From a virus, in IMG/VR virus record IMGVR_UViG_3300027844_002060, positions 1 to 32,951 of that record: a stretch of DNA of 32,951 nucleotides; one strand, given 5' to 3'. Position numbers and translations under genes: made by a program. The number at the start of each line of letters is the position of its first letter. Position 1 is the stretch's first letter. This document shows positions 821 through 32,203 of the stretch, piece by piece. The notes under the pieces were generated by a model, which saw only the letters and a program-made list of their open reading frames with translations, made no database searches and was not told where the DNA came from.

Positions 821-922
821 CCCGACCCGCTTGCAGTTGCGATCCGCTTGCAATAGCGAGCGCCTGGCTATAGCGACCCGCTTGCTATAGCGACCCGCTT
901 GCTATAGCGAGCTGCTTGCTCG
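821..922 (+). repeat. Six tandem 17-bp imperfect repeats (iteron-like)
   Basis: Six head-to-tail units of 17 bp at 821-837, 838-854, 855-871, 872-888, 889-905 and 906-922. The core unit is AGCGACCCGCTTGCTAT; units four and five are identical and the others differ at a few positions. Neighbouring units create GCTATAGC palindromes at the junctions. The array lies in a non-coding stretch upstream of the ribbon-helix-helix and primase-helicase genes, the position expected of a replication origin or of an array of regulator sites. Function is inferred from position only. Confidence 0.8.
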
Positions 923-1398: not shown

Positions 1399-3633
1399 AT
1401 GCTCCCCTACCCATCTCCCCCCGCAGGCTACAGCTACGTCCGGCAGCGACTACCCGGCGGCGAGTACATCTCCACCGGCTGGTTTCGTGACGGCGTAGTG
1501 GATGCCTCCGGCCGAGGGCGCAGCTCGAAAAACTGTGCGGGCGTGGCTACGCTACTGTTCGACTGCGATGTCGTGTCGGTCCTGACCGAGACACGCCGCG
1601 CCGTAGGACAGGACGTGGAGTCCGACGCCAAGGGACAGAAGCTGCATATGTACCGACTGCCCGATGACCTGGTCAGGCGGTGGAAGGGATGGATGAGGGA
1701 TGAGATTGTCCCCACCATCGAGCGTGCTATCGGTGCGCCCGCTACCTGCCTGGTGGATACCGGGTGGGGATACCACGCCCACTTCCGGGTGGCATCGGAT
1801 GTGTGCGGCGACATCCCCTACCTCAAGCGTATCGCTGAGCTCGCTATCGCCAACGCCAACGAGCAGTGCATAGCACTGGGCAAGGAGATGGAAAAGCCGC
1901 TGCTCAACCTGTCACCCTGGGATGCTACATGGGATGTAGGCTCCCGTCTTTGCCGGGTGCCGGGTACCAACAACACCAAAGCTCGAGCGAAACCACGGGA
2001 GTGCGTGGTCATCGGAGGGGACAGGACATCCATCCTCACCCGCCCGATGTGTGCAGCCGTACAGAACAGGCTGGCCCCTGCCGATATGTTCTCGCCGCCC
2101 ACCCGCAAGCTGCCCGTGCGACAGCAGACAGCGGAGCTGGACTTCCGGCGGCAGCAGCTCAGTGATGGACGGACGTGGCAGGGCGTAGTCGATGGGCTTG
2201 GCCCCGGCGAGAAGCTGAATGTCATATGCGTATACGGTGGCACGAGCGTGGGCTCTGCGTTCATCGCCAAGGAGAAGGACGGAAGGCGCGCGCGGTACTA
2301 CTCCAACGCCCAGAAGACCACGTACTGGAATAGCTACAAGGCAACCCCGAAGAAGAAGGGACGCGCCGAGCTTGCGCCTGACCCGCGGCAACCTCATACC
2401 CCAGAGAAAAGTCTGCTCAACCTGCAGCTCATGCTCCAAGAGGATGGGGCGTTCGAGCTGTGGTACAACGGCTTCACCCATCAGCTAATGAACGGGAGTG
2501 AGGTAATCGAGGAAACCTTTGCGACCCACGTAGCCCTGCATATGGAGGCCACCTATGCGTGGCGATGGGGCATAGGGGAAGCTCGGCTGTGGTCTATGGT
2601 GGAGTATGTGGGCAAGCAGACCACAAGGAATCCACTGGCAGAATATCTCGAGGCTATCAAGTGGGACGGGCAGGCCCGCTGCGACCGACTGTTCATCGAG
2701 GGCTGCGGGGTGGAAGACACAATGCTCCACCGTGCCTACGGACTGAAGTTCCTCGTCGGCATGGTCGCTCGAGCTCTTGCCCCTGGGTGCAAGCAGGACT
2801 GTATGCCTGTCCTCACCGGCATACAAGGATGGGGAAAGAGCACATTCTTCAAGCTGCTCACCGACATCCCTGGGATCGAAGGGCTGTACTGCGATACCCG
2901 ATTCGATATAGGGAACAAGGATGCCTTCCTCACCCTCTATAAATGCTGGCTGTTTGAAGACGCCGAGCTGACCGGGACCAGGCGTGCCGCCAACGATAAG
3001 CTGAAGAACTTCTTGAGCTCTGCCGAGGACACCTTTCGCACACCCTACGCTCGCAAGGCGCGCACCTACAAGCGACACACCTGCGTCGTGGGGACCACAA
3101 ACAACAAGCAGTTCCTTGGCGACCCCACCGGAAACCGTAGGTACTGGGCCATGCAGGTAGGCCACACCCACCGCAAGGCAGACCGGCTCGACCGTGAGTG
3201 GCTGATCAACCACCGCGGCCAGCTATTCGCAGAGGCAGTCCATCACTTCCGGGCGGGTGTCCAGTGGTGGCTCACCCACCAGGAGGACCGGCTTCGCGGT
3301 ATCGCCAACGGTTCGTACCAATCCCTCGACTGGTTTGCCGAGTGCGCACAGGATGTGTACGCAGCCAACAGCGGTAGCCCGGACAGTGGATTCACCGTGG
3401 GCTCGTTCGCCCGAGCCATCCCCTTCACCGACCGGCAGCCCTGCCCGCAACGAGACGGGAAGAAGCTCCGCGATGCGCTGTTCACCGCCGGCTTCGTCAA
3501 GATCGACACGAACAAATACCGCCGGCTCTACTACCGACAGTCCATCCAAAGCCCCGACGCCGACACAGGACTGACAGTCCTCGATGACAAAGAACTCGGC
3601 GCAGGCCAGACAACAATCCAACTCGCCCGCTAA
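1399..3633 (+). CDS. Primase-helicase fusion (AEP-like primase plus VirE/SF3-type ATPase)
   Basis: A 744-residue bifunctional replication protein. The N-terminal part resembles archaeo-eukaryotic primases: an acidic pair FDCD (residues 54-57), a GWGYHAHF motif (122-129) and an R(V)PGTNN-type motif near 190. The C-terminal part is a VirE/D5-like helicase ATPase with Walker A GIQGWGKST (474-482), Walker B LFEDAE (518-523) and a sensor-like TTNNKQFLGD segment followed by NRRYW. Such fusions prime and unwind DNA at phage and plasmid origins. I chose the ATG at 1399 because it has the AAGGA site; the open frame extends upstream to 1321 but that would overlap the preceding gene. No DNA polymerase gene accompanies it in the window, so host polymerase is probably recruited. 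Two more GGACAGGAC copies lie inside the gene (1606, 2019). Confidence 0.88.
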   Translation: MLPYPSPPAGYSYVRQRLPGGEYISTGWFRDGVVDASGRGRSSKNCAGVATLLFDCDVVSVLTETRRAVGQDVESDAKGQKLHMYRLPDDLVRRWKGWMRDEIVPTIERAIGAPATCLVDTGWGYHAHFRVASDVCGDIPYLKRIAELAIANANEQCIALGKEMEKPLLNLSPWDATWDVGSRLCRVPGTNNTKARAKPRECVVIGGDRTSILTRPMCAAVQNRLAPADMFSPPTRKLPVRQQTAELDFRRQQLSDGRTWQGVVDGLGPGEKLNVICVYGGTSVGSAFIAKEKDGRRARYYSNAQKTTYWNSYKATPKKKGRAELAPDPRQPHTPEKSLLNLQLMLQEDGAFELWYNGFTHQLMNGSEVIEETFATHVALHMEATYAWRWGIGEARLWSMVEYVGKQTTRNPLAEYLEAIKWDGQARCDRLFIEGCGVEDTMLHRAYGLKFLVGMVARALAPGCKQDCMPVLTGIQGWGKSTFFKLLTDIPGIEGLYCDTRFDIGNKDAFLTLYKCWLFEDAELTGTRRAANDKLKNFLSSAEDTFRTPYARKARTYKRHTCVVGTTNNKQFLGDPTGNRRYWAMQVGHTHRKADRLDREWLINHRGQLFAEAVHHFRAGVQWWLTHQEDRLRGIANGSYQSLDWFAECAQDVYAANSGSPDSGFTVGSFARAIPFTDRQPCPQRDGKKLRDALFTAGFVKIDTNKYRRLYYRQSIQSPDADTGLTVLDDKELGAGQTTIQLAR

Positions 3634-3651
3634 CCCCACAAGGACACACCC

Positions 3652-3879
3652 ATGAAAAGCAAACCCCGCACGGCACCCGCCACCTACCGGATGACATTCG
3701 ACATTCGACTGCCCGTCACCGAAGAAGAAGAGCTCGCAACGCTGCTCGAGATAGCAGCCGAGTCCCTCGTGGTCGCGGTTCGATACGTCCACGGCCCAGC
3801 CACCCAATCGGTAGGGCTCGGCGTTGTCGAGGACACCTGCCACATCACCGAACTCTCACCCCTCACCCCCAACCTCTGA
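3652..3879 (+). CDS. Small conserved-looking protein of unknown function
   Basis: A 75-residue protein starting with ATG behind a reasonable ribosome-binding site (AAGGAC, 7 bases upstream). The N-terminus is basic (KSKPRTAP), followed by a likely beta strand (YRMTFDIRLPV), an acidic helix (TEEEELATLLEIAAESL) and further strands (VVAVRYVHG). It sits 18 bases after the primase-helicase stop and 7 bases before the annealing protein start, so it is part of the recombination and replication operon. No family is recognised. Confidence 0.6.
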   Translation: MKSKPRTAPATYRMTFDIRLPVTEEEELATLLEIAAESLVVAVRYVHGPATQSVGLGVVEDTCHITELSPLTPNL

Positions 3880-3886
3880 GTCTCAA

Positions 3887-4573
3887 ATGATTAAACACTC
3901 CGACACCATCACCGCGTTCTCGCTCGCCTTTGTAGCTGCCCAGTCAGAGATGGCCGGCGCCAAGAAGACAAGCAAGAACCCCCACTTTCGCAGCACCTAT
4001 GCCGACCTGGCATCCGTCCTCGAGGCGGTCATCCCACCGCTCAACAAGCACGGCATCGCGGTGCTGCAGTTCCCTTCGTTCGACAAGGACACCGCGCTGG
4101 TCTCGGTCGAGACCCGGTTGCTCCACAAGAGCGGAGAGTGGATGGGCGGAACCTGCAGCGCAGCCCCAAAGGACGCGAGGAACGTTCAAGCCATCGGCTC
4201 GACCATCACGTATCTCAAGCGCTACGGCCTTCAGTCCCTCACGGGCTGTCCATCCGAAGACGACGATGGGAACTCGGCATCCGCAGCTCCCCCTCGGGTT
4301 GCCCGGCGTGATCCCGCACCCGGGGTGCGCCAGATCCACACACCTCCGCCTCCCCCGGCCGGCCCGATGACCACAGACCAGATGAAGGCAGCCGCCGTCG
4401 CCGCGGGTGTCACCCTCGGCCAGTGTACTTATTTCCTGGTGGACCGTGGCCGGCCGAGCCCACAGGACTTGACCCCAAACCAGCAGCGCGACTTCTTCGA
4501 TCACTGGCTCCGGCCCAACGTAAACCAAATAAAAAACCACGTTCGTGCAGACACGGGAGCGCGCGATGACTAA
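3887..4573 (+). CDS. erf: ERF-family single-strand DNA annealing protein
   Basis: A 228-residue protein of the ERF recombinase type. The N-terminal domain shows the family pattern: an initial helix with F-x-x-A-Q-x-E-M, then NPHFRSTYADLASVLEAV, a PLNKHGIAVLQFP segment, and an SxxxYLKRYGLQ motif. The C-terminal third is a Pro-rich linker (a PPPPPAGP stretch) followed by a small helical tail. ERF proteins anneal complementary single strands in phage recombination and genome circularisation. The ATG at 3887 is preferred over an upstream in-frame start because it abuts the previous stop by 7 bases and begins the conserved domain. The next gene, a RuvC-like resolvase, overlaps it by 8 bases, so annealing and branch resolution are translationally linked. 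Confidence 0.88.
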   Translation: MIKHSDTITAFSLAFVAAQSEMAGAKKTSKNPHFRSTYADLASVLEAVIPPLNKHGIAVLQFPSFDKDTALVSVETRLLHKSGEWMGGTCSAAPKDARNVQAIGSTITYLKRYGLQSLTGCPSEDDDGNSASAAPPRVARRDPAPGVRQIHTPPPPPAGPMTTDQMKAAAVAAGVTLGQCTYFLVDRGRPSPQDLTPNQQRDFFDHWLRPNVNQIKNHVRADTGARDD

Positions 4574-9452: not shown

Positions 9453-12400
9453 TCACCTCCGGTCCACGCCTGTCCTCATCTCAGCCTGCGCTCGTTTCAA
9501 CTCGAACATCGTCTGCGACAGAATCTCCTCGGGGTCTTTCGCGCCTATGGGCGTCTGCGCTCCGATGGCGAACGACCACAGCGGGACGTTCCCCCTCCGC
9601 TGCTCTTTGATGTAGTCGCTGTCATGACCCGCCATGATGTTCTTGGTCATATCCTCGGTGGTGCGCTTCATCTGAAAGAGGGTCATCCACATGACATGTG
9701 TCTTGAACCTCTCCATGCCGGCAACTGAACTGAAGTACCACTCGTAATAGGCATCATCAGTGTCCTCACGGAAAGACGGTCGACCGGGGATCCGCTTGCT
9801 GCGGTCCAGAACAGGCCTGATATCATACGCCTCTCGGAACCACGGGAAGATGTCATCAGGTCCGTTGTGAAGCGCCCATGCCAACGCCCAGTCGGGAACC
9901 TTCCAGCCCTTGTCGGTCTGCCGGAGCGACGAGTGGATCCAACCCTCAATCATCTTCGTAAGAACCGGATGCAGGTTCTCCTCCGCAATACCCTTCGTGA
10001 GAAGAGCCTGCGACTCGACCTCCGGCTGGAACCAACCAATGACCCATGCCCCCATCGAGAGCAGGTCGGAGAAGCTGTCCACGCCTGGGTCGCTCGGGCC
10101 GTAGTTCATCGCACCCGCTGTGCCATCAAATACATACTTGGTGGGGTCAACCACGATCCGGGACTTCGTGTAATCGGCACCGTACAGGTACTGCGTAGAC
10201 GCCTGGTGGCTATCCCGCAACGCCAGCATCTTCCTCGAGAACACCCCGCCGTCTCGAGCAATAGACTCTATGAGCTCGAGCATCATCGAGAGCCGGAAGG
10301 TGACGAACAGCATGACTCGGTTCAGCAGCGTGCGAACGATGCCTGGGGCCCGGCCGTAGTCAAGCACCACAGCTTTGGCGAGCTGACCGGCTTGCTGCTC
10401 GGTCATCCCCTCCTTCAAGGCAGACGCGAACGTGTTGTGGCGGAACGCACGGTCTGTTGCGTTCGCTACGTACTGGAAGATGTTCGTGCGCAGGGGATCG
10501 AAGGTCCGCAAGAACTGCGCCCACGGGTTTTTAGCCGAGCCCCCCGACGCAAGATGCGCATCCCTCATCAGGTCTCGCATCCACGCTTCCTGAAACTCGA
10601 TGGAACCTCGAGTTATCTGGATGTTGGCCCGACCCATGGCATCCTGGAGTGCTGCTTGGGTCCAGCGTCGGCCAGTGCGAGAGGTGAACACAACCGCATC
10701 AGGTGGTCTCGGCGTCACCGCATCCACGAGCTTCGGCGGGAGCGCCGCCAAAGCCTTCTTCAAACCCTCCCGGCGGGAGAGCATCCGCGCCTCCTCCGCG
10801 ACCCGGGTGAGGGCGACCGTCGGGACAAGGGTGACCGCCTGCTTTGCTACATCCACTGCCTGGGCAACGTACCCCCCCCCACGCGCAGCTCGAAGCGCCC
10901 CGACTGCCCCCACCGTTGTCAGTGCCAACAGCGGAGCAGTTAGCAGATTCATTCCGATGTACCGCATATTCGGGGCGGGGACCGGCAGGATGATTGGCCA
11001 CCCGTCTTCTGTAACCCCCGCTCCTACCGCATAGAAGCCGCCAGCCAGCAGCCCACCAGCGGCGAGTGTCCGAGAGGAGAAGAACGCCCCCTTGATTAGG
11101 TTTATAGCGAACATAGCGGCATTCTTCCCGCGCTCGACCGGGTCTCCACTTCGCCAGGCTTTGACGAGTCGGTCTCGCTGGGTCAGCATCTCCAAGTTGT
11201 CGATGAGACGCCCGTCCTTGGCTGACGCCACCAGCTTCGCGATGGCATCGGAATACGAGTCACCCATGAGCAAGATGGCAGGTTGGTAGGGGTCTATCTC
11301 CATCACATTCGCGACGATATTCTGGAGGCTTCCCGGCCCGCGGCCCGGGGTGAAGCCCAGTGCCCGCGCATTACTCAAGAACTCCTCTACCGCTGGGACT
11401 ATCAGCGTGTCGAAGGCGTTGCTCATCAGCCCGTCAGCCAAGCGCATAGCAAGGTCGCCCTCGACCACGTTCTCCATGGCTATGATCGCCTCGCGCGAGG
11501 GGGTGGCTCCTGCCGGGAGCCTGTCGAACTTCACTCCCAGCTTCCGGCTGCGGGCAAGCTCCCACAGATCGAGCAACGCAGTGTCACCTGGATTCAGCGT
11601 ATCGCCCTGCGATCTCGCAAGCTGGAGCCCCTTCGCCAACAACTTCGTTGCAAGTAGGGTCGCGTCCTTCTTGTAGGCAAACACAACCTTCTTCAGGCTG
11701 TTGAAGTCTATGTCGACGGTGCCATCTTTAAGTATCTGCGTGAGTACATCGCTGATGATCTCCTGTCGCGCCTTCGGGCTGAACGAGTTGTACATCCGGG
11801 CCGAGGCCTTATCGAGCTCCCGGGTATAGGCGCCTCCACCGATAATAGGCGCCAACCCGTATTCATCGACCCCGGGTCGAGGGGTCATCACATCGAGCTT
11901 CGCCAGCTCGGCAAGCTTCACGTTCACCTGGGAGGCGATCTCCGCTTCGGCCCGGGAGAGTGCTGTGGGCGCGTCGTCCCCCGCCTTAATGTGGGCTGCT
12001 CGAAGGGATTCTACCGTGTCCTCGAGACCGTCCTCGATGAGGGTCCGGTAAACCGACGTGCGGTTCTTGACCGAGAGTAGCTGCTCACTGCGGGCAAGGT
12101 TCGGTCGGCTGCTGAACGCTGAAGGCATGAGCTCGACCCACACCTCGGGGCTCCTAATCCTCATCGCCGCTACACCGCGGTCAATGGTGCGGACCTCATC
12201 CGCCCCCACAGCCCAGGCGGTGAGCACTTGGGAGAGGGCGTCGTCGTTAAAGCCGGTGGGGATGCCCCCGAAGTTCTCACCCTTTCCCCTTTCTTTGAGG
12301 CGAGGGTTTTCTACGCGCGCCTTCTCGATCACAGCCTTCAGGTTGTCCAGGCTGGGCATCAGATACTCACCTGGGAGGCGAGTGGCCCGGTTCGGATCGA

Positions 12401-15400
12401 TGCCGGGTAGTGTGACCCACCGCTCAACCGCGTCCTTAATCGTGTCGTATTCGGCTTTATCGAAGAACAGAGAGAGGATGTTCTCCCACGTATCCTCCAT
12501 GACCTGCGCGGCGATATTGCCCCTCACCGTGCCTGCCCAGTCTGTGGCGTCACGCACATCTTTCTGGATAAGCTCACCCACCGCGGCCCCTCCCTGGTCC
12601 CCGCTGGTCGTATAGGCCACTCGATACCACGCATCGTTGTCGGCTTGCCCGGCCGACATTAACCGCTCGGCTTCTTCCGTTGCGGACTTAATCTTGTCCT
12701 GCACCACCCGGGTGATACGGGTCTTCACAATCCCATTGAGGGCTGCGGCGCCCGGGTTCGGGAACCCGACAGCTCTTGCGGTCGTGGTCGCATCGCGGAG
12801 CTCCCGTTGGAAGTTGTCTCCAATCCCACCGACCCGGCTCTTTAGGTCAGCGAACAACCGCTGGATAGCACCGTGGCTCACCTTCTCGTACAGGAATGGC
12901 GCGTCCTTACCGAACTTGGCTGTTGCCCAGACCTTGGCTCTATGTACTGCCTTGCGCACACCTGACAAGTCGACGGCTATCTTGCTCGGCAGCACAACTC
13001 TCGCCGCTTCGCTGATGAGCAGAGGCACCGTGCGGGTGGCAAGGTTGACGATATTCCGGCGAGCTACGCGAGTCTCGGGGAGCCTGTCGAGCCCTACGTT
13101 GACACGCTCGACCATCGCGCGCTCGGTCTGGGGGCCACCGAAGGCTGTCCGAGCAGCGCTGTAGAGCTTAGCGGGCTCATCGGCTTCCGATATGTCGTCC
13201 ATCAGGTGGAGCCGGAACATGTCTGACTCAATCTGCTCGAGCACGTAGGCCATATCGCCTTCGCTCAAGACGCTTGGTGCGTCGTCTGGGCCCGCGTCTA
13301 TGTGGCGAAGTATCCGTGTGAGGTCTCGGTTGCGCCGGATGTTGCCGGCACCGAAAGCCGTCAAGATAGCATCGCGTAGCCCGAGCTTGTCTCCGGTGAC
13401 CGTCACATCGTTGACTTTCGCCCCGTCTACCTTCCGGCCTTTGTGCTTGACGGTGAACGCCTGCCGGTAGGGCTCCATGTCGCGTTTAACTTTAGCGAAC
13501 AGTGCTCGAGTTACCCGCTTAATAGGGGCAATAACGCTGCGGGTGACGAATACAAAGTCATCGGGGATCTCGTTCTCGATGGTCGCCTCGATGGCTCGAC
13601 CTGCCGATGCCCTGGCCGCCGATGCCACCTGAAAGAGGTGCGTGCGGATCGTGGCTGGGTTCAGCTTGACCTCCCCCATCCGGCGTTGGAAGATGCGCCC
13701 GAGCTCTCCTGTCACCGACACTTCGTCAGCGCTGCGCGATGCCTTCACGAGGTCAGAGCCCAGCTTGTGGATCTGAAGCGGCACAGGCTTACCCGGCTGC
13801 ACCGGGAGCGCCCCCGACATCGAGCTTGGGTTGGGGTAGAGCGTCTTGACCCACTCCTCCAGCGACAGCTTCTGCTTGTTGTCCAGCGCTGGCAGCACCT
13901 TCTTGGTTACGCCTCCCTGTGCAAGCAGGTTGCGGATCCGCGCCTCGGGGTTGGCGACCCCGCTCTCTACAATCTGCATGACCCCCGGGCGGTAGACCTC
14001 TGCCCGCCACTGGTAGATGACCTTGTTCAACCGGGTTCTTTCGGCTTGGGTTAGCACCCGCTCGGGAAACGCCCCCCCGAACCCTGCCTGTTTGCGGAGG
14101 TAAGGGCCTATCGCCGTGCCCTGAACAAGCGTATTGAGATCCCGCCCGTCGACTGCGGCTTCGCTTGCATAGAGGTGCATCTGCATGAGGTAGGGCGTCT
14201 GCATCTCGGAGCCGCCGTACTCCCCCGCTACCCTGCGGACATTGTTCGCACCCACCTGCGCATCAAAGAGGTCGTCAGGTTTGGGTGTCCCAGCTCGACC
14301 CTCGAGCAAGTCACCCACCAGCCGCTGGGCTTTGGCTAACTCAGCAGCTTTGATGGGATGCCCCAGCGTGAACGCTGCCTGGTGGAGCTTGGTCGAGCCT
14401 AACTGCTTGGAAGCCTTGGTAAGGCCCTTTGACCCCAGCCGAGCGAGTTCCTTTGTCAACTTGAACGGGCCGATCCCGTAGGCTACCTCGAGACCAACAC
14501 CGTACCAATACGGAGTCGTAGTGCCCATGTGCTCGTAGATGGTGTTCTTGCCCGCAGCCGAGCTTTCCGTGTAATCTTCCCGAGCCCGGTAATACTCCGC
14601 GGCCCGCTCCTCCCGTAAGGCTGGTGCGCTCATGAACTCGTCGCCCGCGGAGCGACCCCGGGCGAGCGCTGTGGCGTAGTCGATAATGAAGTCGCCCGTA
14701 GCCGAGGCTACCCGCACACCGTAGGGGTCAACGGATGTGGCTTGCGTTCGTTGGGTAGGCTGGAAAGGAACAAGCATCGCCGGGCCAGGTACATCTGCGG
14801 CAAACTGGAGGAGTTCCGACTTCTCCTTCAGCCCCGGGATGGCGGCGAGGAGCGTGTAGAGATTCGGCGGAGTGGGGAGCTCGACCGCACCTGAGAATGT
14901 CTCCCGCGCATCCTCGGGGGTCATGCCCCCCCGCTTCACTGCCTGGTCGATCAGGCCCTCGTGGATCCGATACGCCCAGCTATTGGGATCGACAGGCTCT
15001 CCGGTGGCTGGGTCTTGCTCCCAAACCAACGGGCTGTACCCCATAGCCACGGTGTTGATGAGCGTGCTTACGGTTGCAAACCAAGAACGAAAGGCGGCGC
15101 CTGTAACCGTCTCGATGGTGCGCGCCTCCCCCGGGCGCGTGTACATGAACATCTCATCGAATGACTGAATGACCACGTCTTTGTACTGCTGGTCGAAGAA
15201 ATCCTGCGCCTCGGAGTCTTCGAGGATTTGGTCATAGTTGAGCTGCCGGGTGATATCGGAGAGGTGCTGCCGAAGCTGCCGCATCTGCCGAGCAATCTTC
15301 TCGGGAGACATGAGTTCTTGTTTGGCAAACGCCTCGGTGACATGCTCGGCTCGGGTCGGTTCTCGCCAGTCCCCCTCGGGGTCGTCCGGGTCCAGGTAGA

Positions 15401-15932
15401 AGGCTTTGTTCTCGAGCTCCCCCGTCTCCTCGTTCACCACCCGGCGCCAGTAGATGCGGCTCTCCCGTGTCGGGGGAAACGCGCTCTCTATGTGGCTGGG
15501 CTCTGGCTCCCCTTCGACGTTGAAGCGCATCGAGCGCAGCTTCTCGGTGACCTCCTCTTTCGCCCGCGCCCTCGCTTCTTCAGGGGGGAGTTTCGACATG
15601 AAGATATGGAAGTCGGTAAGGTCTTTCTCGGTTTCCGTTAGCCCCCGGTTGAACTCTGCAATCGCAGCTTGGGTGTCCCGCTCCCGACCGTACCTGGGCT
15701 CGGCACCTTCCGCAGGAGGGACAACGAACCCGGTGTAGGAAAGTGGGGGGAGCGACGGGGGGCGAGCCACCGCGGTCCCGGGAGAGGGAGACACACCCAC
15801 CGCGCCCGCTGACCCTGCCACTCCCCCCGAAAGCTCTGCACCCGTCTGCCTGTAAAGCTCTGCAAGATGAGTCGCACCTCGAGCCTCGGCGGCAACGGCT
15901 TCCTTCTCGTAGTGTTCAGCGGTACGGGCCAT
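9453..15932 (-). CDS. Giant internal virion (DNA-ejection) protein
   Basis: A 2159-residue protein, about one fifth of the window. The N-terminus is helical and charged, the central part is long and mostly alpha-helical, and near residues 1600-1690 there are at least two hydrophobic stretches (LLAGGFYAVGAGV and a later NLLTAPLLALTTVGAVGAL) that could span or insert into a membrane. Position after two other internal-protein-like genes, late in the structural operon, matches the third and largest ejection protein of podoviruses (gp16 position in T7). I searched by eye for a lysozyme or transglycosylase motif and did not find a convincing one. Its start overlaps the previous gene by 17 bases. 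It probably forms part of the channel that carries DNA across the cell envelope. Confidence 0.72.
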   Translation of the reverse strand: MARTAEHYEKEAVAAEARGATHLAELYRQTGAELSGGVAGSAGAVGVSPSPGTAVARPPSLPPLSYTGFVVPPAEGAEPRYGRERDTQAAIAEFNRGLTETEKDLTDFHIFMSKLPPEEARARAKEEVTEKLRSMRFNVEGEPEPSHIESAFPPTRESRIYWRRVVNEETGELENKAFYLDPDDPEGDWREPTRAEHVTEAFAKQELMSPEKIARQMRQLRQHLSDITRQLNYDQILEDSEAQDFFDQQYKDVVIQSFDEMFMYTRPGEARTIETVTGAAFRSWFATVSTLINTVAMGYSPLVWEQDPATGEPVDPNSWAYRIHEGLIDQAVKRGGMTPEDARETFSGAVELPTPPNLYTLLAAIPGLKEKSELLQFAADVPGPAMLVPFQPTQRTQATSVDPYGVRVASATGDFIIDYATALARGRSAGDEFMSAPALREERAAEYYRAREDYTESSAAGKNTIYEHMGTTTPYWYGVGLEVAYGIGPFKLTKELARLGSKGLTKASKQLGSTKLHQAAFTLGHPIKAAELAKAQRLVGDLLEGRAGTPKPDDLFDAQVGANNVRRVAGEYGGSEMQTPYLMQMHLYASEAAVDGRDLNTLVQGTAIGPYLRKQAGFGGAFPERVLTQAERTRLNKVIYQWRAEVYRPGVMQIVESGVANPEARIRNLLAQGGVTKKVLPALDNKQKLSLEEWVKTLYPNPSSMSGALPVQPGKPVPLQIHKLGSDLVKASRSADEVSVTGELGRIFQRRMGEVKLNPATIRTHLFQVASAARASAGRAIEATIENEIPDDFVFVTRSVIAPIKRVTRALFAKVKRDMEPYRQAFTVKHKGRKVDGAKVNDVTVTGDKLGLRDAILTAFGAGNIRRNRDLTRILRHIDAGPDDAPSVLSEGDMAYVLEQIESDMFRLHLMDDISEADEPAKLYSAARTAFGGPQTERAMVERVNVGLDRLPETRVARRNIVNLATRTVPLLISEAARVVLPSKIAVDLSGVRKAVHRAKVWATAKFGKDAPFLYEKVSHGAIQRLFADLKSRVGGIGDNFQRELRDATTTARAVGFPNPGAAALNGIVKTRITRVVQDKIKSATEEAERLMSAGQADNDAWYRVAYTTSGDQGGAAVGELIQKDVRDATDWAGTVRGNIAAQVMEDTWENILSLFFDKAEYDTIKDAVERWVTLPGIDPNRATRLPGEYLMPSLDNLKAVIEKARVENPRLKERGKGENFGGIPTGFNDDALSQVLTAWAVGADEVRTIDRGVAAMRIRSPEVWVELMPSAFSSRPNLARSEQLLSVKNRTSVYRTLIEDGLEDTVESLRAAHIKAGDDAPTALSRAEAEIASQVNVKLAELAKLDVMTPRPGVDEYGLAPIIGGGAYTRELDKASARMYNSFSPKARQEIISDVLTQILKDGTVDIDFNSLKKVVFAYKKDATLLATKLLAKGLQLARSQGDTLNPGDTALLDLWELARSRKLGVKFDRLPAGATPSREAIIAMENVVEGDLAMRLADGLMSNAFDTLIVPAVEEFLSNARALGFTPGRGPGSLQNIVANVMEIDPYQPAILLMGDSYSDAIAKLVASAKDGRLIDNLEMLTQRDRLVKAWRSGDPVERGKNAAMFAINLIKGAFFSSRTLAAGGLLAGGFYAVGAGVTEDGWPIILPVPAPNMRYIGMNLLTAPLLALTTVGAVGALRAARGGGYVAQAVDVAKQAVTLVPTVALTRVAEEARMLSRREGLKKALAALPPKLVDAVTPRPPDAVVFTSRTGRRWTQAALQDAMGRANIQITRGSIEFQEAWMRDLMRDAHLASGGSAKNPWAQFLRTFDPLRTNIFQYVANATDRAFRHNTFASALKEGMTEQQAGQLAKAVVLDYGRAPGIVRTLLNRVMLFVTFRLSMMLELIESIARDGGVFSRKMLALRDSHQASTQYLYGADYTKSRIVVDPTKYVFDGTAGAMNYGPSDPGVDSFSDLLSMGAWVIGWFQPEVESQALLTKGIAEENLHPVLTKMIEGWIHSSLRQTDKGWKVPDWALAWALHNGPDDIFPWFREAYDIRPVLDRSKRIPGRPSFREDTDDAYYEWYFSSVAGMERFKTHVMWMTLFQMKRTTEDMTKNIMAGHDSDYIKEQRRGNVPLWSFAIGAQTPIGAKDPEEILSQTMFELKRAQAEMRTGVDRR

Positions 15933-31838: not shown

Positions 31839-32109
31839 GATTGACCTGACCTTCACCTTCCGTGCATCTTCCCTCCACTTCTCCACCCGCGCGCGTCTCC
31901 GGTCCATCGGTCAGCTCGGCGTGGTTCCCACTGTTGACGGCTGGACACTTCGGGGCTGTGGTGTCCTGCTTGAAGCCCGAGGCTATCCGCAGTCCACTCG
32001 ACTCGGTGCCCTCGCCCGCGGCGTGGTTGTCGGTGCGCTCGCCGCCTGTGTCTACGGTGCCGGCGTCATTGTCAGCGTGTCCGCGGTATCTGTCGGGATG
32101 TGGGGCTGA
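31837..32109 (+). CDS. Small protein with C-terminal membrane segment
   Basis: A 90-residue protein with a basic N-terminal half (HFSTRARLRSIGQL) and a long hydrophobic C-terminal segment (GVVVGALAACVYGAGVIVSV, about residues 64-83) that should span the membrane. The ATG is preceded by GACACACC, without a strong ribosome-binding site. It is the first gene of the right-end + strand arm and presumably early. No family is recognised. Confidence 0.45.
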   Translation: MIDLTFTFRASSLHFSTRARLRSIGQLGVVPTVDGWTLRGCGVLLEARGYPQSTRLGALARGVVVGALAACVYGAGVIVSVSAVSVGMWG

Positions 32110-32203
32110 TGTTCATCGATGCGCGGCCCGAGCCTTGACCGGTTCGGACCCCATCATCGACGAACAACAACCCCACAACCACAACCACACCGGACCTCAC
32201 ACC

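Follow-up and report, generated by a model that had tools for sequence, protein, structure and literature searches.

PICI and SaPI elements carry a pri-rep-ori module, in which iteron-like repeats lie close to the gene of a VapE/PriRep helicase (PriRep1, PDB 7pds). The PICI origins are found 3' of rep and consist of two iteron sets around an AT-rich region (PMC6092414). In the Sulfolobus plasmid pRN1, a small DNA-binding repressor gene (orf56) is followed by a primase-helicase gene (orf904) in one operon. ORF56 represses this ribbon-helix-helix (RHH)/primase operon, and the origin is a stem-loop of ~100 nt located 3' of orf904, with no iterons (PMC4234260). The pRN1 primase is of the archaeo-eukaryotic type and its helicase belongs to SF3. 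Phage P4 alpha is a primase-helicase that carries a DNA-binding domain at its C-terminus and has ori/crr iterons in two separated repeat sets, while the lambda O iterons sit inside the O gene. The primase of P4 alpha is of the Toprim type (PMC4234260). NrS-1 PrimPol is a phage primase-polymerase fused to a helicase, and it primes at TTTGGTTA/GTGG template sites, not at known iterons (PMC8718748).

Here we describe a replication locus in IMGVR_UViG_3300027844_002060, a linear virus record from IMG/VR with 32,951 bases, which was analyzed over its whole length and is called the window below. Like pRN1, it has a small DNA-binding gene followed by a primase-helicase gene (1143 and 1399), a pair that is conserved in relatives. 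A primase of the archaeo-eukaryotic type, as in pRN1, is predicted in the window from its motif pattern. The window differs from pRN1 in that its repeats are 5' of the helicase gene, that the DNA 3' of this gene, where pRN1 has its stem-loop origin, is coding only, and that the helicase domain is VapE (PF05272) instead of SF3. The helicase is homologous to that of PICI/SaPI, with iteron-like repeats again nearby, but these are located 5' and beside a GC-rich tract; unlike PICI/SaPI, the window is from a tailed phage that encodes a capsid and a terminase of its own. With P4 alpha the window shares a C-terminal DNA-binding domain, predicted here, and repeats in two separated sets, but not the Toprim-type primase. 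NrS-1 PrimPol gives a fold match with the helicase part. As in lambda, some of the repeats lie in the 5' part of a gene of the replication operon, although no O homologue is present.

Organization of the replication region

The order from 5' to 3' is methyltransferase-like gene, 17-bp repeats (array A), C-rich tract, a second repeat family (repeat B), RHH gene and VapE gene. The features are:

78-686, + strand: DNA methyltransferase-like upstream gene (phrog_757; PHROGs E 7.9e-61); the relative L059 has a homologue in the same position
770-796, + strand: terminator-like hairpin that follows the upstream gene and precedes the array (11-nt arms, 91% complementary, 5-nt loop)
803-936, no strand: outer inverted repeat enclosing array A (arms 803-821 and 918-936, 19 nt, 79% complementary)
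823-924, + strand: array A, six 17-bp units with consensus CGACCCGCTTGCTATAG, centered on GCTATAGC or variants
922-971, no strand: C-rich tract with 90% GC, the GC maximum of the contig
972-1004, + strand: repeat B, two tandem 16-bp copies (AAGGACAGGACGTTCA)
1143-1382, + strand: predicted ribbon-helix-helix DNA-binding protein, 79 aa (alignment, AlphaFold2, Foldseek)
1157-1201, + strand: repeat B, three tandem 15-bp copies in the 5' end of the RHH gene, encoding ELDVQGQDVQGQDV
1384-1398, + strand: repeat B, single copy after the RHH stop and before the VapE ATG, over the Shine-Dalgarno position
1399-3633, + strand: predicted fusion of an archaeo-eukaryotic-type primase and a VapE helicase, 744 aa
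1606-1616, + strand: isolated repeat B match in the VapE gene, an exact 11-mer that may be due to chance
2019-2029, + strand: isolated repeat B match in the VapE gene, with one mismatch, that may be due to chance

Positions 687-1142 (456 nt) are the longest intergenic stretch in our gene model. Array A lies in it and is in effect non-coding, as had been stated, because 17 cannot be divided by 3 and 687-1142 is not covered by any family-matched ORF. The hairpin at 770-796 had been called terminator-like in the preliminary description. Its stem is good (CGCCACCC-CTTCC-GGGTGGCG), but the T tail is weak and the terminator scan did not call it. A similar hairpin is found ahead of the corresponding region in one relative (L022). 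No match to a sigma-70-type promoter was found in the region.

A very strong imperfect hairpin was found elsewhere, at 32098-32176 between divergent late and early genes. It is the most stable stretch of the contig (minus strand of 32060-32200, fold z -6.65) and is a possible terminator, regulatory or origin element.

The 17-bp repeats

Tandem Repeats Finder reported array A at 823-920 (period 17, 5.8 copies) as the top tandem repeat of the contig, with a score of 119; the highest score of any tandem repeat in 100 dinucleotide-shuffled versions of the whole contig was 67. The limits were widened by eye to six units at 823-924. This confirms the six head-to-tail units, two of them identical, that had been placed two bases away at 821-922. 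Identity to CGACCCGCTTGCTATAG is 14/17 for the unit at 823-839, 15/17 for 840-856 and 13/17 for 857-873; the units at 874-890 and 891-907 are perfect (17/17) and identical to each other, and the last one (908-924) has 13/17. The consensus does not occur elsewhere in the contig with up to 3 mismatches (0.08 expected).

The units are near-palindromic and an imperfect outer inverted repeat encloses them, both of which had been missed. Their 8-bp centers are in phase and read GCAGTTGC, GCAATAGC, GCTATAGC three times and GCTCGAGC, four of the six being perfect palindromes. In the last unit the symmetry is kept despite two changed inner bases (GCTATAGC to GCTCGAGC). The 17-bp period corresponds to 1.6 helical turns, and therefore adjacent units face different sides of the helix. 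The fold of 800-940 has z = -3.95 as + strand RNA and is less clear as DNA (z = -1.89). We do not take the RNA fold as a sign of a structured RNA, because near-palindromic repeats fold in this way by construction.

The palindrome GCTCGAGC occurs 8 times in the contig (814, 918, 1981, 2767, 10274, 13235, 22961 and 25992) against 1.2 expected, and two of these copies border array A.

The C-rich tract and repeat B

Repeat B and the GC maximum that separates it from array A had also been overlooked. The C-rich tract (922-971) follows array A directly and abuts repeat B. Repeat B (AAGGACAGGACGT) has copies at 972, 988, 1159, 1174, 1189 and 1387 and weaker ones at 1606 and 2019, all on the + strand. 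Allowing one mismatch, GGACAGGACGT has 7 matches in the contig against 1.1 expected, none of them outside 974-2029. The units of array A do not resemble repeat B. Together with the GC tract, repeat B tells at least as much about the region as array A does.

Repeat B was also considered as a CsrA/RsmA site and rejected. Its ACAGGAYGU is one base short of the consensus ACARGGAUGU and contains no ANGGA, which is found in strong sites (PMC7652899). The ACARGGA/ANGGA loop motif is absent, as ACAGGA has neither the R nor the A two bases before GG. Rfam gave sub-threshold matches only.

Genes of the module

The array had been described as lying ahead of a DNA-binding and a primase-helicase gene, and this holds, for the first by predicted structure and for the helicase by Pfam and PDB matches. 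The AlphaFold2 model of the RHH protein has helices at 32-44 and 49-78, and Foldseek matched it to Arc, AtaR and KacA (probability up to 0.98, with weak E-values). The protein alone has no match to Pfam or other families, and it aligns with the small proteins that precede VapE in relatives. Its first ~25 residues are predicted with low confidence; this N-terminal extension, encoded in part by the repeat B copies at 1157-1201, is absent from the RHH proteins of most relatives.

The VapE gene product matches PF05272 (E 9.8e-66). The nearest structure is SaPI PriRep1 (7pds; E 1.3e-52 by sequence and 1.1e-22 by fold), so a PriRep/VapE helicase as in PICI/SaPI replicons is present. Its AlphaFold2 model has a mean pLDDT of 84. 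In the N-terminal part, F54-D55-x-D57, G122-W-G-x-H126 and D175-D179...R183...G189..N192 are invariant in 24 aligned relatives, which presumably fits the motif pattern of archaeo-eukaryotic primases. No Pfam primase model matched this part, and the assignment as an archaeo-eukaryotic-type primase is for this reason a prediction only. At the C-terminus, helices (645-656, 667-673 and 683-697) and strands (700-703 and 709-712) are predicted in an order that would suit a winged-helix element. Genes for an Erf-type annealing protein, a RuvC-like resolvase and a cytosine methylase are located further downstream.

None of the early genes tested was seen to encode a DNA polymerase. The earlier statement that the primase-helicase lacks its own polymerase is doubtful and unproven, because primases with this N-terminal motif pattern can polymerize DNA. 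NrS-1 PrimPol, of the same general build, is a replicative polymerase (PMC8718748).

Relatives and conservation

Neither DNA similarity searches of the phage collection nor a search of viral contigs with VapE alone found relatives. These came from a terminase search (18 loci) and a VapE alignment search (79 viral and 66 genome loci). Most relatives have a terminase 64-84% identical to that of the window, and in one contig (L004) it is 100% identical, while VapE identity in relatives is 32-44%. Between 21182 and its right end, the window is 99.9% identical to L004, which does not cover array A. Exactly at the window end (32951), L004 (1-612) runs on with different sequence, which points to a branch point in the population. 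The window may be an incomplete genome, although the distance from terminase to VapE fits that of relatives. No terminal repeat was found in the window. End-to-end joining of the contig was rejected on this ground and on the divergence of L004 past the right end.

Array A is absent from the ~29 relatives compared (VapE 32-44% identical), including L059, the sole relative that shares the order methyltransferase, repeats, RHH and VapE. A methyltransferase search gave 75 loci, none with the same operon, and a search with the 6812 protein found no relatives. The degenerate 17-bp iteron pattern had six chance matches in viral contigs, in unrelated coding DNA, and the search for the tandem repeat B pattern returned nothing.

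In all relatives that have sequence upstream of VapE, this gene is preceded by an RHH-like ORF. Tandem repeats are also frequent there: in 1.5 kb before VapE, 10 of 27 loci have a best tandem-repeat score of at least 60, against 3 of 83 control stretches (p 1.6e-5, for loci that are related and not independent). In the window, L044, L053 and L059, no more than about 11 bases separate the GC maximum (88-100% GC, C-rich) from tandem 15-18-bp repeats with GGAC or GGACA-like cores; the relatives with this design are distant (VapE about 40-44% identical) and their repeats differ in sequence. The window, L053 and L059 each have their own repeat a second time at the RHH/VapE junction, and one copy is found there in L055, where the upstream part is missing. 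L044 has the GC-tract layout without a junction copy; its GC tract and 15-bp repeats (2685-3149) are part of an upstream ORF and keep its reading frame, which looks like an expansion of the repeat element inside a gene. The L044 ORF resembles the small protein that precedes RHH in many relatives.

The layout is thus recurrent, with a changing repeat sequence. The window, L044, L053, L055 and L059 all fall in the group with an RHH protein that starts with RPR[ILF]; the layout may follow the RHH protein. In two other members of this group (L049 and L061) the layout is absent, and L060 carries GGAC repeats with no GC tract. GGAC counts alone are clearly raised only in the window and L053, and for this reason the case for repeat B in relatives is built on its copies and the layout. 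A search for one conserved long hairpin in the relatives found no common element.

Origin and control of the module

Array A had been read as an iteron origin, in which an initiator bound to the repeats would melt nearby AT-rich DNA and load the primase-helicase. Such an origin is expected to have several direct repeats of ~17-22 bp, in phase and next to a replication gene; the six 17-bp units are of this kind, and they lie in the longest intergenic gap ahead of a PriRep-type helicase gene. The other elements looked for are missing. The best 50-mer at 600-1500 has 54% AT (contig maximum 62%), and array A abuts the tract with 90% GC where an iteron origin would have its AT-rich unwinding element. 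DnaA boxes are not above chance (8 one-mismatch matches in the contig against 8.6 expected; two near the region, none exact), and to our knowledge they are not needed by every iteron origin. The GC-skew check proposed for 0.8 kb showed no turning point in cumulative skew, which in phage is confounded by gene direction. The absence of array A from relatives also weighs against this reading, as weak evidence, because these are distant (VapE about 40%). The data do not support a classical iteron origin, which we consider unlikely. The 3' side of VapE has neither two iteron sets around an AT-rich region, as in PICIs, nor a large stem-loop, as in pRN1. The next ORF follows VapE after only 18 nt, and 3500-4000 contains no comparable repeats, AT-rich stretch or inverted repeat. 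Because of this short spacing and the lack of repeats at 3500-4000, the region upstream of VapE is still the better origin candidate.

The repeats could instead be operators only, with array A, repeat B or both serving as RHH sites for autoregulation of the operon and the origin lying elsewhere, for example at the very strong hairpin near 32.1 kb (about 32098-32176, z -6.65). The RHH gene is directly downstream, repeat B copies flank and enter it, and the RHH/primase operon of pRN1 combines a repressor with a separate stem-loop origin (PMC4234260). Array A is unlike repeat B, though, so that at most one of them is a likely RHH site, and we regard this explanation as rather unlikely. A lineage-specific expansion by slippage would leave array A with little function and the real control of the operon in repeat B or elsewhere. 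Identical units in the middle with divergent units at the edges, as found here, are the usual look of replication slippage; no relative has an array of the same sequence, and other relatives carry their own unrelated short arrays. Phage genomes are compact, however, the exact 17-bp phase is kept, and so is the palindrome of the last unit, changed on both sides. This origin of the array is improbable to a degree similar to that of the classical iteron reading. Control at the RNA level, with array A as a multi-hairpin in the transcript and the GGA-bearing repeat B as CsrA/RsmA-type sites, one of them over the VapE ribosome-binding site, is very unlikely. It would account for the + strand RNA fold (z -3.95), the single orientation of repeat B and the copy at 1387, which overlaps the VapE start region and has GGA in a possible small loop. 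The fold is expected of near-palindromic repeats, however, repeat B falls short of the CsrA consensus and lacks ANGGA (PMC7652899), and no Rfam family reached threshold.

Our preferred reading, to which we give about an even chance, is that 770-1400 is a cis-acting, putatively protein-bound control region of the replication module formed by the RHH protein and the primase-VapE helicase. That the same region also contains the origin is possible, but less probable. As the control region is pictured here, array A would be a lineage-specific set of phased near-palindromic protein-binding sites between the terminator of the upstream gene and the operon, and repeat B, beside the C-rich tract and at the RHH/helicase junction, would be the element whose layout recurs in relatives. 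An RHH dimer or the C-terminal domain of VapE may bind one or both arrays. The bound phage protein would control the operon and would probably aid helicase loading there or nearby, in the manner proposed for PriRep- and pRN1-type initiators. Against this reading stand the absence of array A from the relatives compared (VapE 32-44% identical), the missing AT-rich element and skew switch, DnaA boxes at chance level, the lack of a sigma-70-type promoter match and the 17-bp period, which turns adjacent units to different sides of the helix. A more specific proposal is very unlikely as a whole: that RHH binds the repeats flanking and entering its own gene, beside a C-rich tract that replaces the AT-rich element, and loads a PriRep-type helicase-primase-polymerase there, with repeats that co-vary with RHH and with array A as an addition.

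If the repeats mark the start site, phages of this type would have an initiator that can do without an AT-rich opening zone, and repeats that change while their layout stays constant would offer a ready test of the protein that reads them. If they are operators only, they would represent ordinary phage gene control.

Other observations

The late region of the window encodes a protein of 2159 aa (9453-15932) with no PHROGs match, of which only the C-terminal part has a relative, in L017. L031 carries a leader repeat (CATGAGGCACACCATGA) ahead of several gene starts, and L031 and L049 have an 11-bp array (GCGCACCAGCT, 5.7 copies) at -2782 to -2720 from VapE. In L062, L063 and L111, a 51-bp array (3.4 copies) with the palindromic TTTACAATGTAAA is located at about -1595 to -1426 from VapE and is another lineage-specific repeat ahead of the same operon. 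Paired inverted repeats (TAGTGCAGGG / ACCCTGCACT) with strong folds on both strands are found in L045 and L067, at about -1310 to -1221 from VapE.
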